Assembly: GCA_963971425.1 (NCBI GenBank)
Contig: OZ020519.1
Location: 5,596,028 to 5,660,027 of the forward strand
Source of the DNA: Bryoerythrophyllum caledonicum
Taxonomy: Eukaryota > Streptophyta > Bryopsida > Pottiales > Pottiaceae
Direction: 5' to 3'
Length of the DNA stretch: 64,000 bases
The position numbers and the translations under genes are program-made. The first letter of the stretch is position 1. Each line of letters opens with the position of its first letter. The notes below the pieces were generated by a model, which made no database searches, was not told the DNA's origin, and saw nothing but the letters and a program-made list of their open reading frames with translations. Of this stretch, positions 11,622 through 63,676 are shown piece by piece.

Positions 11622-12310
11622 CCCTTTAGCGCCCAGGAAGCCTGAAATGGGACTCTGGAGACGCTAAAACTCAATTTGCATGAAATCCATGAGGAATTTG
11701 GCTTCGAGATACGAAGCTCTGATTTCCACACACATTACATGAACACTCTCCAACAATCTAATCATGATTTGGATTTATAGAACTCTTGGAAAAGCTAGGA
11801 ATACAACACAAAATACACCAAATACGCTAATTATTGTGAATACAGTGGATACCATGCCACATACTATGTTGTATTTCACACACATGCACATTGATTTTGG
11901 TCTTAAATTTTGATTGAACTTTGTCTTTAAGACATTCTTCATTGTTTTGTGATTGTTGATCTCTCTCCTCACATACGAAACTTCCGTTTTGATTCGTATA
12001 AGGTTGGAACATTTTTGTATACAATCAAGTAGAAAAAAGCAAAAAAATCACCAACAATTGTGTATAAATATTTTCTCCACATGTGATATGTCAATGCAAA
12101 GCTGCCAACCTAGTGCATATGTGAACTACTCTTATTCAAAGTCAAAAATTTCTTGCAAGAATCTATTGATGGTTTAAGTAGTACACCCTCCAAAATCTAC
12201 AGTTTTCACTACCAATATATGGTAGCTTTAAACACTACAATCTATTCCATCAACCGTTGGATGTTGTGCAAAAATTCCCCAAAGTTCAGGTTAACATCAA
12301 TGACAGTGTT
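11622..12310 (-). mobile_element. TTAA-flanked MITE family B, copy truncated at one end
   Basis: Starts directly after TTAA (11618-11621) with CCCTTTAGCGCCCAGG and matches the reverse complement of the complete family B copy at 30942-31733 up to about 12290, where similarity stops before the far terminal repeat. Landmarks are 'aacacaaaatacacca', 'ttgattttggtctta' and 'ggttggaacatttttgtata'. Confidence 0.7.
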
Positions 12311-27817: not shown

Positions 27818-28745
27818 TCTAAATTTCCAATTGTCCCTTTGGAGGATCGGGCTGGTTCCTATTGTGTCAATTCCTAACATTATTTTTTGAACTTTTTACT
27901 ATAGATGGGCATTGCTGAAAGCTTTGTGTGAGTACAATATATTCTCAAATCTCACATTTAATGAAAAAGTTATAGGGTTTTGAAGTTCAAATAGGGAGAA
28001 TGGGCAAGTTGGGCAACTTCAAAAACGTTTGCTAGGACACTCTATTGAATGTGAGATTTTCAATACCAGCAAATAATATTATTTCCTTTCATATTGTCAA
28101 AAAAAATCTCTTGTCTTTACTGAAAAATAGCATATTAATCCAAGTCAAACATTTTCACACATTGACGCACATTGCTAGGCAAGGTACCAAAAAAGTTCCT
28201 TCCTTTCCACATAAAACTTAGAGATCTTCATATTTTTATAAAATTATTTCCTCACGGCATTATGTGGTATAAACCCTCTTATTGATCATTTGGATTCTCA
28301 TTCTAATACACATTAAGTTCACAAAAAAATATAACGTGAGTTGACAATTTTTAAATCTCCACTCCTTGTACAATTTTTTTGAATATGCTACACCTTTTCT
28401 TTACCTCTAAGAATTGGTGTACAAGGAACTAATACAATGCTTAACATGATGGTAATGAATTTAGACCTTGTGTTGTGCAAAAACTTTACACCAAGTGAAG
28501 TCAAATTTTACTGACCCACTATATGCAAGGAAGAAAATGAATCCTTTTTTGTACTTCAAACACTATAATCTTTCAATTTGTGCGGTGGAAGTTTATGAAA
28601 TTTTCTGAGTATGTTCATTAATAAGTCTTAATTTTAATCGTACGATTTAAAGTAGAAATAAAAGGTTTGTTCTTCTTCCTTGCTCATTGCACTAAAACAA
28701 GCAGTTTTGAAGTGTTTTTGGTGTGAAATTGTCAAAGTAATTTAG
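27818..28745 (+). mobile_element. TTAA family A (long subtype), near full length, old
   Basis: Co-linear over about 930 bp with the copy at 30004-30937: start 'taacctctaaatttccaa', then 'ggttcctattgtgtcaattcc', 'ttgctaggacactcta', 'gtgtacaaggaactaat', and right part 'ttttggtgtgaaattg'. Both terminal repeats are eroded, so it is older than the copy at 30 kb. Confidence 0.6.
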
Positions 28746-29117
28746 GACTTCATTTTTTATTTATTTTTTTGTATTACACAAAGTAAAATATGTGCATGTA
28801 TATATAGTTCCCGGCTGACGTTAAAGGATTAGAGGGTGTTAGTGATAGTACACCATTTCCAAAGTATTTGAAATTTTTTACACAAATCCGGAATTGCATG
28901 CAATCTTTGATAGGCACACTTGCTTGAGAATGAACACCCTCTCAAAACCTGGCATCCACATGTTTGATGGATGTAAATTAGTGTACATGATCCACATTAC
29001 ATTTCAATCCACATTATATAAGCAATGTTGCATAATTATACCCAATGTAACATGAGAATTCAATACACCCACCTTCTAGCTCAGGTTCTACATAGGCAAG
29101 TTTTAATGTTTACGCAA
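28746..29117. other. no gene seen
   Basis: AT-rich spacer between mobile elements; nothing recognised. Confidence 0.35.
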
Positions 29118-29126
29118 TACCTTACG

Positions 29127-29406
29127 GCCCAGGGCGAATTGACCCCCTTTTTTGTACTTACCCGAGGGGGCCATGAGGTGGTGGGGCCAAATCTGGCCCT
29201 TATTTTGTTTTTGGATGGGGCCCTAATTATTGTAAGGGAAGGTCCCCCAGGGTAAACAATGGCCGTGGGCCCCAAATTTGTCCAAAAAAAATCCAAAAAA
29301 GCCTCTAGACCCCCCAAAATAAGAGGGCCAGAAAAATGACCCCATGCAATTAAGACAGGGCCCACCTCGGATAAGTACCAACGAGGGGGGTCAATTCGCC
29401 CTGGGC
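29127..29406 (+). mobile_element. Mutator-like MITE, 280 bp
   Basis: Terminal inverted repeats GCCCAGGGCGAATTGACCCC / GGGGTCAATTCGCCCTGGGC. The 9-bp direct repeat TACCTTACG flanks both ends (29118-29126 and 29408-29416), and one further base is shared in position but differs. A 9-10 bp duplication points to the Mutator superfamily. No ORF of note. A second copy, inverted, is at 59650-59914. Confidence 0.85.
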
Positions 29407-29432
29407 GTACCTTACGGGTGTTAATCCTTTAA

Positions 29433-29502
29433 CCCCTAAAGGTCCAAGAATCCCTTGAGGGACTTTAACAATCTTTGGAGGGGACTTTTAGACCTTTAGG
29501 GG
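29433..29502. mobile_element. 70-bp minimal TTAA family A element (hairpin)
   Basis: CCCCTAAAGGTCCAAGAATC at the left pairs with the right end GACTTTTAGACCTTTAGGGG; the whole 70 bp can fold into an imperfect hairpin. TTAA flanks both sides (29429-29432 and 29503-29506). It abuts the family B element that begins at 29507, sharing one TTAA. Confidence 0.7.
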
Positions 29503-30003
29503 TTAACCCTTTACCGCCTGGGCATGTTTATGGAAAAACCAAGATTTTTTTGTTGATTTTTTTTAATTGAACCGGATTTGATGGAAATACAATGCCTAAT
29601 GTTAATACCTAACCTTAAAAAATTGAACTTAACCCATGACCTAAACTTTGGGGAAATTTTGCACAACATCCAACGATTAATGGAATAGATTATTGTGTTT
29701 AAAGCTACCATATATTGGTAGTGAAAACTGCGGAATTTGGAGGGTGTACTACTTTAACCATCAATAGAATCTTGCAAGAATTTTTTTACTTTGAATAAGA
29801 GTGGTTCACATGTGCACTAGGTTAATAGCTTCGCATAGACATATCATATGTGAAGAACATATTTATACACAAGTATTGGTGATTTTTTGCTTTTTCCTAC
29901 TTGATTGTATACAAAAATGTTCCAACCTTATACAAATCAAAATGGAAATTTTTTATGTGAGGAGAGAGATCAACAATCACAAAACAATGAAGAATGTCTT
30001 TAA

Positions 30004-30937
30004 CCCCTAGAGGACCAAGTGTAAGAAATGGGCTTTTTGAAAGTTTGGTCAGGTTCCTGTGGTGTCAATTTCCAACATTCTACTTTGAAATCTTTACTAT
30101 AGAAGGACATTACTAAGACCTCACTGGGAGAATTTTTTTCTACTAAATTCAACATATAATGAAAAAGTTATAGGGTTTTTAATTTCAAATGGAGAGAGCG
30201 GGCACTTCGGGCACCTCCAAAAACTTTTGCTAGGACACTCTATTGATTGTGAAATTTTCAATACTAGCAAGTTATACTTTTTCCCTTCATATTGTCAAAA
30301 AAAAGTTCTTGTCTTTAGTGAAAAATAGCATACCAACCCAAGTCAAACATTTTCACACATTGTTGGGCAAGGAACCAAAACAACTTCTTCTTTTCCACAT
30401 AAAACTTAGAGATCTTAATATTTTTGAATTTGTTTTCTTCCACGACAATATGTAGTGTAGATCTTCTTATTGACCATTCGGATTATCAATCTAAAACATA
30501 TTAAGTTCACACAAAATTAATACGCGAATTGGCAAAATTTGAACCTCCACTCCTTGCACACTTGTTTTGAATATGCTACACCCCTCCTCTACCTCTAAAA
30601 AATGGTGTACAAGGAACTAACATTATGCTTAACACGATGGTAATGGATCTAGACCTTGTGTAGTGCAAAAATTTGACACCAAGTGAAGTTAAAGCCTGCT
30701 GATCCAGTGAACGCAGGGAAGAAAATGAACCATTTGTTTGACTTTAAACATTATAATCTTTCAATCCGTGCGGTCAAAGTTCATGAAATTTTGTGAGTAT
30801 GTTCCTTAATAAATCCTATTTGAGATCCTACGGTCAAAACTAGAAATTGAAGTCTTTGTTTCCTTTGTTATTCATTGCACTAGAATCTAACGATTTTGAA
30901 GTATTTTTGGTGTGAACCTGTCACGGTACCTTAGGGG
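30004..30937 (+). mobile_element. TTAA family A (long subtype), 934 bp, complete
   Basis: Starts CCCCTAGAGGACCAAG after TTAA (30000-30003) and ends CTTAGGGG before TTAA (30938-30941). This is the best reference copy of the long subtype. The interior has no ORF over 70 codons. It sits inside a family B element at that element's 'gtcTTAAagac' site, as the uninterrupted copies at about 31428 and 11925 show. Confidence 0.8.
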
Positions 30938-30941
30938 TTAA

Positions 30942-31733
30942 CCCTTTAGCGCCCAAGAATGTTTCTGGAGAAACCAATAATTCTACTGATTTTTTTTCTT
31001 TGAACCGGAATTGATGGAAATACAATGACTAATATTAATATCTAACCTTATAAAATTGAACTTAATCCATGATCTCAACTTTGGGGAAATTTTGCACAAC
31101 ATCCAACCGTTGATGGAATAGATTATAGTGTTTAAAGTTACCGTATATTGGTAGTAAAAACAATGGAATTTCGAGGGTGTACTACTTTAACTATCAATAG
31201 AGTCTTGCAAGAATTTTTTTACTTTGAATTAGAGCGGTTCACATGTGCACTAGATTGATAGCTTCGCATTGACATATTATATGTGAAGAAAATATTAATA
31301 CACAATTATTGGTGATTTTTTTTCTTTTTTCTACTTGGTTGTATACAAAAATGTTCCAACCTTATACGAATCAAAATGGAAGTTTTGTATGTGAGGAGAG
31401 AGATCAACAATCACAAAACAATGAAGAATGTCTTAAAGACAAAGTTCAATCAAAATTTAAGACCAAAATCAATGTGCATGTGTGTGAAATAACAACATAG
31501 TATGTGGCATAGTATTTACTGTATTCACTTTATTTGGTGTATTTTGTGTTGTATTCCTAGCTTTTCCAAGAGTTCTATAAATCCAAATCATGATATGATT
31601 GTTGGAGAGTGTTCGTGTAACGAGTGCGCAAATTTGAACCTCGTATCTCGAAGCCTAGTTCCTCATGGATTTCATGCAAATTGAGTTTGAGCACCTCCGG
31701 AGTCCCATTTCAGGACTCTTGGGCGCTAAAGGG
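30942..31733 (+). mobile_element. TTAA family B, 792 bp, complete
   Basis: Starts CCCTTTAGCGCCCAAG and ends CTTGGGCGCTAAAGGG, a 16-bp perfect inverted repeat. TTAA on both sides (30938-30941 and 31734-31737). No transposase ORF. Its left TTAA is shared with the right end of the family A element, so it entered the TTAA created by that insertion, or the reverse order occurred. Confidence 0.8.
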
Positions 31734-31976
31734 TTAAGAGGAAGTTCAACCAAAATTACAGATGAAAATCAATGTGCATGTGCGTGAAATACAACATAAT
31801 ATGTGGCATGGTATCCACTGTAGTTTACTGTATTTGATGTATTTTGTGTTGTATTCCTACATTTTCCAAGAGTTCTGTAAATCCAAATCATGATCTATGT
31901 GCGCAAATCTAAAACTCGTATCTTGAAGCCTAATTCCTCCCAGATTTCATGCAAATTGACTTTTAGCACCTCTGGC

Positions 31977-32673: not shown

Positions 32674-33609
32674 CCCCAATGGGACAAGAGTCTCCTCGGG
32701 GACTCTTGAAGGTTCAAGCAAGTTCCTATGGTGTCAATATGTAACATTCTTCTTCGGAATTTCTGTCGGAGATGGACATTACTAAAAGCTTTGTGTGAGT
32801 ACAATTTTTTCTTGAATCTGACATTTATTGAAAAAGTTATAGGGTTTTGAATTTATGATGGGGAGAGCAAGTACATTGGGCAACTTCAAAAACTGTTGCT
32901 AGAACACTCTATCAAATGCGAGATCTTCAATAGTAGCTATAAATATTAATTCCTTTCATGTTGTCAAAAAAAATTCTTGTCTTTAGTGAAAATAGCACAT
33001 TAACCCAAGTCAAACATTTTCACACATTGTCACACATTGCCGGGCAAGGTACTAAAAAAACATCTTCTTTTCCACATAAAACTTAGAGGTCTTCATGTTT
33101 TTTCAATTTTACCTTTTCTACTACATGATGTGGTGTAAGCCTTCTTATCAATCGTTTGAATTCTCATTCTGGAACATGCTTAGTTCACAAAAAAATATAA
33201 GGTGAATTGGCAATTTTGAACCTCCACTACTTGTACAATTATTTTGAATATGCTACACCCCTTCTTTACCTTTAAAAATTGGTGTACAAGGAGCAAACAT
33301 CATGATTAACATGATGGTAATGAATTTAGACCTTGTGTAGTGCAAACATTTGAGACCAAGTGAAGTCAAAGTCTAATGATCCGCTCAACGCAGGGAAGAA
33401 ATGAACCGTTTGCTCTAATTCAAACACCATTATCTTTCAATTTGTGCAATCAATGTTTATGATTTTTTTTGTAGACTTTACTTATTAAATCTTAACTGAG
33501 ATCCTATGGTTAGATGTAGAAATAAAAATTTGTTTCCTCCTTACTCATTGCTCTAGAATGAGCAGCTTTGAAGTGTTTTTGGCATGAAAATGCATTGGGC
33601 TTTTAGGGG
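32674..33609 (+). mobile_element. TTAA family A (long subtype), 936 bp
   Basis: TTAA (32670-32673), then CCCCAATGGGACAAGAG; right end GGGCTTTTAGGGG, then TTAA (33610-33613). Co-linear with 30004-30937 throughout. The left terminal repeat has diverged more than the right one. Confidence 0.75.
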
Positions 33610-59995: not shown

Positions 59996-61334
59996 AAGCA
60001 GATTTATACCAAAGTTGTTGGTGGGAGAGGCCCCAAACGATCAAATTGGACCCACTCACTCTATTTACAGCTACTCCACTCTTTATAAGCATACAAGAAA
60101 TTAAGGGTAAAATTTCCTCAAAGTCCTCCTTAAGCTTGTCTTCTCCATTCTAATTGCTCCACCTTACACTAATTAACTGAGAGACCTCTAAAGATGATCA
60201 TCTCCTTACCGGAAAACTCACCTGCAAAGTAAAGAGAGGTTTACATTTTTCATAGATGTCCAAAAGCACCTCATATGAAAAATTCAGACAAAATTCAAGT
60301 GTGTTATGATCTTCAAAAGGTTGCTTATATTTTCACACCTCTCGGCGGATAGCTGATAATATTCATGGACTTTTCTTTCCACATTTATCAAATTTACATT
60401 ATTAACTACATTACATTATGTTTCGGACACTACACTAACTACACTAAAGATCACATTTAGTGTATGAGCACGAATAGTGTAATTACCTTAGTACAATATT
60501 TGTGAACAAGTTCGCAATTAGTGTTCAATGCAGCCAATTTTTTATTGGCAATTTTTCGCCACGTCGTTATCTCCAATCCACGTTGGCGAATTTGAAGCTG
60601 GTAAAATGATACTTTTTTCTTGAGTTGGTCGCCTTGAACTGACTGGCTGGGGCATCATGGCGGCCTGTCCCGCTCAGCCTCCCCCAGTCACCTCGCCGTC
60701 TCCACTCATCCAGCCTGTCTCTCCATCGCCACCCCACTCCCCCATTGGATCCCATGCACGCCACCCTATTTCGTCGTGAACAGTGCTCGCCAGACTCATT
60801 TCTCTCCCTCCCGCTTTGGTGTTCGCCAACACGCTCTTGCTATTTATGATTCTGTAGCCGTTCTCCCCCGTCGCGCCGATGTGCACTCACCATGGAGATC
60901 GCTTCTTCGTTTAGCATTTTAGTGCCAGGGTTTTGCAATCTGGGAGTGTCGCAGGCTTTGTGATTTCGGCGTGGTGGGTTTTCAGAATTCTTTAATCGGC
61001 TGCTAGCGCACACACAGAAAGGTTTAAGTCCCCTCCCGAACCTGTCGATTACCTCAACTGTTGTTTGCGTGAAGTGTTTGACTGTGGTGCTTGTTTGCAC
61101 TGGGATTGCATTTGTGCAATTTTCGTTGTTGTAATGGCGCCCAAACAGTCGATACTAATTAAGTTTTTGTATGGTGGCAGCGGTGAGGAAGTGGACTCGC
61201 TGGGGGTGGAAATTGGAGAGCTGCGGTTTGGCACCACGTAGGTGGTGGAGAACGGTGGTAGCGCAGCGTCGCCTAATGCCGATACAGAATCCGTTCCGCC
61301 TTTTCTGTGTGCAGGTGCAGCTTCGGAGGGAGAT
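59996..61334. other. no separate gene seen; upstream flank of the hAT gene
   Basis: The GC content rises from about 60560. The region may hold the 5' end and left terminus of the hAT element, but no terminal repeat pair with an 8-bp duplication was found. The shared palindrome lies at 60442-60464. Confidence 0.35.
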
Positions 61335-63676
61335 ATGGTGGCAGCTCCAGCATCGGAAATGCCTCTGCATACGAGCTCGGAGGTGGAGGAGCTCGACCCT
61401 GTTGTAGGGACTGCCGCTCATGAAATGGCGCGAGCTCGCCGGCGTGGGTACGAGAAGAACCGGCATTGGCAGGATACTTGGGCGGCGCGTTTGCCTTGGG
61501 CAGAATTTGTGGTGTCTCCTACTGGGGAAATTCGGCAGGTTCGATGCAGAACCTGTTCAGAGGTTGAGGGGCGTGACAAGCTCTTGGTCCCGAAGATTGA
61601 TTCCTTGTGGAAGCATGCTGGTCGCCGGAAGGCCCTCGCAAGCCATGGGAATCTCCGAGCAGGTCAGTTTTATTTTCTCTCTGGAAATGCTCACGCTAAG
61701 AATAAAAAGATTTATTTTGCTCGTCATGGTAGGGCTGGGAGTATTGTTGTGCAACAAGTACAAGCCGGTGCAGTGAAAGAGAGGCGTCGAAAATTAGTTC
61801 AGTTCAGGGCTGTTTTTTTTCTCCTTCAGCAGGGAGTCCTATATCCGATTTCTATGACTTATGTGAGCTTTTCGAAGTCCTTTGCGTCCGTGATCTCCCG
61901 AAAAAACACTAGTCTGTTGGGTTGGGATGGAATATGGCTGATCATATTGCAATGACCCTCGCTGCTCACACCAAAAAGGTGATATCCAGCGCTCAATTCA
62001 TCTCCATGTCCGCTGACGAGGTCACTACAGTCGACCATCAGTCCTGGTTGTCTATTCATTGCTATGTCTGTGTTCAATTTAAAAGAATCCCCATTCTGTT
62101 GTCCTTGAGTCGATTAGAGGAGGGGAATGGGGCCGCGGCTGTTGGTAGTGCAATACATGAGCAGGTTGCTTTTGACACTGGCTTGGACGATTTGGCTTTG
62201 GCTTTGGCTGGTCGAATTGTATGCTTTGGGGCGGATGGGGATAGTGTATTCCAGGGATGCCGAAATGGTGTCACTGTAAGCATGAGAAACCATGCTGCTC
62301 CATTTATGTTCGGTGTGCACTGCATGGCACATCGCACGAACCTAGCTGTAGAGCCACTCTCTAATCTTCCCATGGTAGCGAAATTAGAGAACCTCTGCCA
62401 TGCCATGTTCTCTTACTTCAGCAAGAGTCCTAAACGGCATTTGGAGTTCCAAAAATTCGCCGAGATAGTGGAAATAGAGGGCCTTCGGATGCTCCGAAAT
62501 GTCAAGACACGTTGGATTTCGTAGCTTTCTCCTTTGCGCAGGATCATGGCGGAATACAAGACATTGTTGGTGAAGATGTGCGAGGACGCTGCAGTGAAGG
62601 AGCCGGAAATGACTGTGAAGCAAATGGCTGCTCGGGAGTGTGCTCGTCGGAATTACAATTCCCTTTGTGATGTCGGCACCTTGCTGGCCATGCCCTGCAT
62701 TCTGCCAATGCTGGAATCTGTAGATTTCTTAATGAAGTTTGTTCAATCCAATAACGTGTTTGTTGCTGATTATGTTGCTCCAGTCCGGATTTGCGAAGCT
62801 GAACTATACATGATGTACAGTGACGATGCTACGGCTTGGCAGGAACAGCATTTCGGCATGTTTTTTTATATTGTTAACAATAATTCCTACGCTATAGTAG
62901 AGGAGTGGGTTACTGACCTGAACACTGGAGATGTGCAGTTGTCATTCAGAATTGGTGACCATACGTATCCTGCTCACTCGATCTGTGCCATCAGCGGGAA
63001 GAAGGTGTCGGTGTCTCAACCGGATTTGGAGCGTATCATTAGCTCAGTCAAGGGGCAATGCCAAGATGCCGTTGAGTTGCTGCGGCTGGAACTGGACACG
63101 CGGTTTCCTGAGGTAGAACTCATGAATGCTTTGGGAATAGTATTCCCACAGTACTGGCTGCAACCTAACGCTGATGATTTGTTCCCCTTGCATTTGAAAA
63201 CCTTGAAGGCGCAGTACAGTGTGTGCTGCCAGGTGAACTTCGGCACCACTGCAGAACCTGAGATGAAGCAGATTGACCCAATCGTTGATGGGCGAAATCT
63301 TAGCTTGCAGTCCAGTCTCTTTAAGCTCACGATGAAGTCTCATGCCAAGGCTGCCATGCAAGAACCGCACGATCAAAATCCTGTGACGAAGCTCCGGTCT
63401 CGGGTTGGCCAGAATGCTCTTATGCTCAATCGGCTTTCAGAGTATATAAAGGTGACGGAAATCGCCATTACGGCTGTGTTGGGCAGTGTGGAAGATGAGA
63501 GGACTTTCTCCACATTAAATTTCGTGAAATCGAAACTCAGGAACCGCCTCGGTGGGCACCTGGACTCATGTGTCAGGCTGTATTCACAACAATTCTTTAC
63601 CTTGGGAACGTTCCCTTTCCATGCTACGATGAGCAGTTGGCGAGATGAATGTGTGCGAAGGGGTGCGGATCAGTAA
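61335..63676 (+). pseudogene. hAT-family transposase (BED-like zinc finger type), lightly damaged
   Basis: N-terminal block from an ATG at 61335: HWQDTWAARLPWAEFVV, then a modified BED-like finger (VRCRTCSEVEGRDK ... SLWKHAGRRK). The RNase H-like core is at about 61922-62521: FISMSADEVTTVDHQSWL (first Asp region), VCFGADGDSVFQG (second Asp), GVHCMAHRTNLAVEPLS, LRNVKTRWIS. The C-terminal block, 62525-63676 in the same frame, ends with the hAT dimerisation domain (ITAVLGSVEDERTFSTLNFV, KSKLRNRLGGHLDSCVRLYS; third catalytic residue in EDERTFS). Damage is one apparent single-base frameshift in the G run near 61831, a TAG at 61910 and a TAG at 62522. hAT enzymes cut and paste with 8-bp duplications; the termini were not found. 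The length is typical. Confidence 0.8.

Follow-up and report, generated by a model that had tools for sequence, protein, structure and literature searches.

PiggyBac-type MITEs with TTAA duplications are known from corals, where the CMITEs, according to the available part of PMC2872659, also form tandem arrays and include an element made by MITE insertion. Reviews differ on the presence of piggyBac in plants, as far as the accessible text of each goes: a 2022 review of land-plant elements counts six plant TIR superfamilies and nowhere uses the word piggyBac (PMC9033089), whereas PiggyBac is included in the lists in the available sections of PMC10794571 and PMC10004981. In the C-Fern genome table, part of an article available in excerpt, 1,230 'PiggyBac' copies make up 0.12 Mb (PMC6890710). 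The available extract of PMC10045372 contains no plant piggyBac, and in that of PMC10619864 one of two occurrences of 'piggybac' turned out to be 'piggybacking'. PiggyBac transposases are thus a group for which land-plant records are scarce: among the papers listed by our searches of the open-licence literature, we recognised none that describes, for a land plant, a piggyBac family with its own transposase.

The window, i.e. the whole stretch of 64,000 nucleotides analysed here, contains a stack of elements at 29429-31976 in the order TTAA, 70-bp palindromic element, TTAA, left part of an outer B element, TTAA, A element, TTAA, inner B element, TTAA, right part of the outer B. Element order and coordinates, including the lengths of 70 bp, 934 bp (A) and 792 bp (B), agree with an earlier note made on this DNA. 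We read the stack as non-autonomous piggyBac MITEs that were mobilised in trans by piggyBac transposases of the same genome, and give this reading a probability of about 0.93. The 70-bp miniature element (29433..29502, no strand assigned) has the ends CCCCTAAAGG...CCTTTAGGGG with TTAA on each side, and its arms of 26 bp, TTAA included, are 88% complementary. It is followed by the left part of the outer B (29507..30003, plus strand), which shares 89% identity with B positions 1-496 and whose final four bases are the target TTAA (30000..30003, no strand assigned). When the flanks are joined at this site, they align without gaps to six B copies, among them the inner B, and all six read TAAA there; the duplication at this site is thus without support from any TTAA-bearing empty relative among the six. 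The non-coding family A MITE of 934 bp (30004..30937, plus strand) shares the stack junction TTAA (30938..30941, no strand assigned, corresponding to C7:5626959) with the inner B MITE of 792 bp (30942..31733, plus strand), which has perfect 17-bp terminal repeats. The right TTAA of the A plus B insertion lies at 31734..31737 (no strand assigned), and the right part of the outer B (31738..31976, plus strand), with 79% identity to B 495-759, lacks the terminal repeat. Alignment of the outer B to the inner B breaks off at position 759 of 792, so that the last ~33 bp are missing and the right edge at 31976 is a truncation that has neither a right terminal repeat nor a right TTAA.

The statement of the earlier note that every junction is TTAA therefore holds, by sequence inspection, for five junctions (29429-29432, 29503-29506, 30000-30003, 30938-30941 and 31734-31737) and fails at the truncated right edge of the outer B. 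Inverted repeats with CCC...GGG ends had likewise been ascribed to each complete element. Those of family B match without error for 17 bp in addition to TTAA, those of family A are imperfect only (CCCCTAGAGGACC / CCCCTAAGGTACC), and the outer B has lost its right end. Nor do the two families entirely lack common terminal sequence, as had been proposed: both begin with TTAACCCYT and diverge beyond. Open frames of at least 150 aa are absent from 29429-31976, and A and B are MITEs in that they are short, non-coding and present in many copies, have inverted ends and carry no transposase of their own. Further pieces resembling the two families occur in the window at 11622-12289 (B) and at 27838-28746 and 32706-33588 (A). 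Directly to the left of the stack lies a 280-bp element (29118-29416) whose inverted ends span 28 bp (GCCCAGGGCGAATTGACC) and whose flanks carry a duplication of 8-9 bp, TACCTTAC(G); we take it to be hAT- or Mutator-like. Three adjoining open frames at 61242-63676 resemble hAT-type transposases by eye; a Pfam scan of one piece of them (61913-62524) gave no match. The window also encodes a WRKY-domain protein (PF03106) and a copia-type polyprotein, from which, and chiefly from the WRKY gene, we take the host to be probably a plant.

While the anatomy is observed directly, the chemistry is modelled on known piggyBac elements: the transposase would bind the CCC...GGG ends, excise the element and join it to a TTAA, which would be duplicated. 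The old B and the 70-bp element would first have come to share one TTAA, and A and the younger B would later have entered one TTAA within the old B. Measured against a consensus built from 29 other B copies, the inner B has 24 deviating sites out of 790 (3.0%) and the outer B 75 out of 729 (10.3%), indicating that the inner B is the younger of the two. The 29 copies are those closest to the inner B and lie 0.9 to 2.9% from their consensus. These values fit an old outer B that received A and the younger B afterwards.

Both families are numerous in the 437-Mb assembly of 894 contigs that was searched, with 3,090 (B) and 10,672 (A) first-look candidates, 40 of which were scored for each family. 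The exact B end including TTAA, TTAACCCTTTAGCGCC, occurs 518 times (268+250) and its reversed control not once, and the same end without TTAA, CCCTTTAGCGCC, 636 times (321+315; control 102). TTAA thus precedes 518 of 636 B-type ends; it also precedes 2,030 of 2,527 A-type 5' ends (CCCCTARAGGACCAAG; controls 0), and TTAA begins at only ~0.5% of positions (0.0046-0.0052 per base in the window and the fetched loci). Where TTAA is missing in front of an A- or B-type end motif, as it is in about 20% of cases, we put this down to decay and to chance matches. The scoring of flanks suggested in the earlier note came out as expected for B: among the best 30 of the 40 scored copies, the window's inner B included, TTAA stands on the left in 28, on the right in 29 and on both sides in 27 (57 of 60 flanks in total), the three deviating flanks being TAAA, TCAA and ATCA. 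The left ends of copies L041, L052 and L061, at which the alignment was trimmed at an end mismatch, were moved by 1-2 bases by hand. Outside the window, the flank evidence for A comes from motif counts and concerns one side, the 5' ends. A different kind of arrangement is seen at C1:6143200-6144900 (L091), a tandem array with an 840-bp unit, two units of which are 99.65% alike; part of the unit matches B positions 397-792 at 93%, and spacings of ~840 bp are also found at C1:6.09-6.16 Mb. On the 65-Mb contig C1, the listed B-type ends and stacked junctions crowd into the first ~12 Mb and are few in the other ~50 Mb, suggesting a chromosome region of quite another character.

Elements that share a TTAA, as A and the inner B do, recur in the genome. 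The motif TTAACCCYTA occurs 14,606 + 14,643 times (control 1,461 + 1,469), a count that takes in simple repeats, for instance tandem TTAACCC copies at C1:455457-455515. Pairs of ends that face each other with four bases between them (TARGGGNNNNCCCYTA) were found at 455 places (control 83), and at 337 of these junctions the four bases are TTAA (control 34). Random use of TTAA predicts ~95-106 such junctions at a TTAA density of 0.0046-0.0052, so the excess is ~3-fold. Among the first ten listed TTAA junctions, three have both arms in common and two more pairs are alike, the likeness in one pair spanning only 49 bp on one arm. This kinship leaves about six independent junctions and reduces the excess to ~2-fold. 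Exact B ends abut another element end in 20 of 518 cases, one of them the junction at 30938..30941, against 3.4-3.8 expected, and 6 of the 30 B copies that were read, the window's included, abut another element, against 1.3-1.5% per copy under random use. Stacking in a shared TTAA amounts to ~3-6 times the random expectation, duplication and regional density being uncontrolled in this figure, and preferred stacking is a lead rather than a result. The related junctions would also suit a reading in which A, TTAA and B were moved or duplicated together as one composite unit instead of arriving by two insertions. We regard this as improbable, given that the end sequences beside the six stacked B copies are all different by eye and that a second copy of the exact A-B junction was not encountered among the few of the 20 B junctions whose flanks were read.

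PiggyBac-domain proteins, a search for which was proposed in the earlier note, are numerous in this genome. The PF13843 (DDE_Tnp_1_7) profile has at least 120 matches in the genome (best E 6.2e-81) on many large contigs. This is a lower bound, since 116 of 305 candidates were scored, and a few elements give two rows. None of the 14 control genomes in the same search had a match. Contamination was rejected as a source, the matches being spread over many contigs of 20-65 Mb. The domain is free of stops in 19 of the 30 best matches. Six transposase-bearing copies were read whole, and all have CCC...GGG ends with TTAA on both sides, in support of the earlier reading of the stack as bearing a piggyBac signature. 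They form three pairs. The 4.9-kb copies E17 (C9) and E22 (C4) share 97% identity, and E10 (C3, 10.9 kb) and E27 (C4, 10.6 kb) share 92-95%; in both pairs homology ends at TTAA on both sides. E12 (C3) and E14 (C9), of ~6.5 kb, align in two blocks separated by an unaligned stretch, a left one of 355 bp with 100% identity and a main one of 5.8 kb with 99.4%; the blocks stop no more than 1 bp from the TTAA on the left and 5 bp from that on the right.

The frames of E12, E14 and E17, and that of E10 as far as its stop, contain the DDE_Tnp_1_7 domain with E values from 4e-64 to 2e-81. The protein L012, encoded by E12, matches piggyBac 6x67 with E 1.4e-28 and piggyBat 9c0f with 1.5e-24, and its aspartates align with those of 6x67 at TIDE, MDNFFTS and GVDVADQ; we take these to be the catalytic DDD residues. 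In E10 the frame is broken by an internal stop, and the last motif reads GVDVANQ, with Asn at the position of the last aligned aspartate of L012. A cysteine-rich C-terminal tail is seen by eye in the L012, L017 and L010 proteins; Pfam called no domain over it. Thus, the features by which piggyBac is recognised, DDE_Tnp_1_7, DDD, cysteine-rich tail and TTAA target site duplication, all occur here. At the protein level, E12 shares 65% with E10 over 553 residues and 40% with E17 over 417. The N-terminal part of L012 contains a GGEGGGEV-type tandem repeat, in which the 8-residue length difference between the L012 and L014 frames may lie. Some of these copies carry MITE-like sequence themselves. 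E10 and E27 (L010/L071, C3:16.5 Mb; L027/L072, C4:9.62 Mb) harbor a TTAA-bounded A-like element and a B-like piece, and E12 and E14 (L012/L069, L014/L070) an 887-bp TTAA-ended element plus A-like sequence. Since these insides are common to both copies of each pair, the elements have probably moved together with their passengers. More speculative, and in our view rather doubtful, is a picture in which resident piggyBac ends serve as preferred landing sites (or elements move as composites), making the stacks non-random, and MITE-laden copies of 6-11 kb are still mobile in a land plant.

Comparison of each MITE end with 15 transposase-bearing ends, with shuffle fractions uncorrected for that number, gave different best matches for A and B. 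With TTAA counted in, 54 of 59 positions at the A 5' end are the same as at the E27 5' end, and the A 3' end contains TTAACCCCTAAGGTACC, which is identical to the E10/E27 3' end. By local score, the A 3' end reaches 25 against the E12 5' end and 22 against the E10/E27 3' end, and the A 5' end reaches 21 against the E12 3' end (0 of 2,000 shuffles as good). On its ends, A belongs with the E10/E27-E12/E14 group, first of all with E10/E27, as a putative non-autonomous relative. The left end of the 70-bp element, the sole end of it that was compared, is nearest to the E10 5' end. Between the 3' end of B and the 5' end of E17, 26 of 29 columns agree and there is a single gap, a score that 0 of 2,000 shuffles reached; likeness between the B 5' end and the E17 3' end is weaker (shuffle fraction 0.0055). 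The transposase acting on B thus probably comes from the E17/E22 family or one closely related to it. A transposase gene between two exact B-type ends was not found. The E17-type 5' end pattern, with one mismatch allowed, occurs at 21 places in the genome, 19 with AAACG (one of them with TTAAT for TTAAC), one with the intermediate AAGCG and one a mismatched B-type; the full E17 subterminal sequence is combined with the exact B sequence CCCTTTAGCGCC at none of the 21. Within ~1.5 kb to either side of the 30 top-ranking transposase matches, no locus showed A- or B-like ends on both sides, because the elements extend further than that; larger regions were read for six copies. Local similarity between B and these 30 loci is limited to short, weak matches of at most 32 bp, so the assignment of a partner to B rests on end similarity (~29 bp). 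Because the closest ends to those of A and of B belong to separate piggyBac families, probably at least two transposase families moved them. The earlier proposal of a TTAA-specific transposase behind both is thus supported, with the refinement that the number of families was probably two or more.

Kolobok and Sola3 also duplicate TTAA, and one of these superfamilies could have moved A and B, the piggyBac copies being there by coincidence; our genome searches covered piggyBac, the two MITEs and the end patterns. The 54 of 59 positions at the A 5' end and the TTAACCCCTAAGGTACC 3' end of the same transposase-bearing piggyBac family speak against this, as do the CCCYT-type starts with TTAA described for piggyBac in the available parts of PMC2872659 and PMC10813416. 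For A, whose ends are common with a piggyBac family, this explanation is largely refuted, and overall we consider it very improbable.

Empty sites support the mobilisation of piggyBac MITEs as well. The flanks of 30 B and five transposase-bearing copies were joined at one TTAA and compared with the fetched genome sequence, and a relative spanning the site was found for 5 of the 35; the nine comparisons printed, from five sites, were chosen by hand. E12 is inserted in a member of family A, and its two printed relatives, of which one is the A of the window, have a single TTAA, as have both relatives of B copy L041. The relatives of E22 read TTAA and TTGA, those of B copy L056 TTAA and TTTA, and the sole printed relative of B copy L049, again the window's A, reads TAAC. 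The expectation that empty sites contain a single TTAA is consequently borne out by at least one relative at four of the five printed sites and fails at L049. PIF/Harbinger elements are common in plants, and TTAA contains both TTA and TAA, so that their three-base duplications (TAA/TTA in the available text of PMC10004981) might resemble TTAA by chance, an explanation that we reject as exceedingly improbable, given four fixed bases on both sides of 27 of the 30 B copies and single-TTAA relatives at those four sites, i.e. a duplication of 4 bp and not 3 bp.

A land plant, if the host is confirmed as such, with a rich native piggyBac system of transposases, partner MITEs and near-identical copies, the last of which point to recent movement as judged from their sequences, would permit direct study of piggyBac in plants and of its origin there, be it horizontal or ancient. 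Possibly, a plant-adapted tool for seamless integration could be derived from such a host. Compared with piggyBac from T. ni (PDB 6x67) and piggyBat (PDB 9c0f), the system is alike in the DDE_Tnp_1_7 domain, the aspartates, the cysteine-rich C-terminus, TTAA and the CCC...GGG ends. It differs in its plant-like host, in the ~300 residues of the L012 frame before the aligned region, compared with 119 in 6x67, and in that some copies measure 10.6-10.9 kb and have internal MITE-like sequence. The coral CMITEs are animal elements of ~100 bp in the available text of PMC2872659, whereas B and A measure 792 and 934 bp. Plant surveys, in the accessible parts of the C-Fern study (PMC6890710) and the angiosperm MITE review (PMC10004981), assign the same superfamily name in plants; there 'PiggyBac' comes as counts and names only, whereas transposase, ends, duplication and empty sites are seen together in the genome studied here. 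The kind of system is already known; what is new is its richness and the presence of two sets of MITEs and partners in a probable plant.
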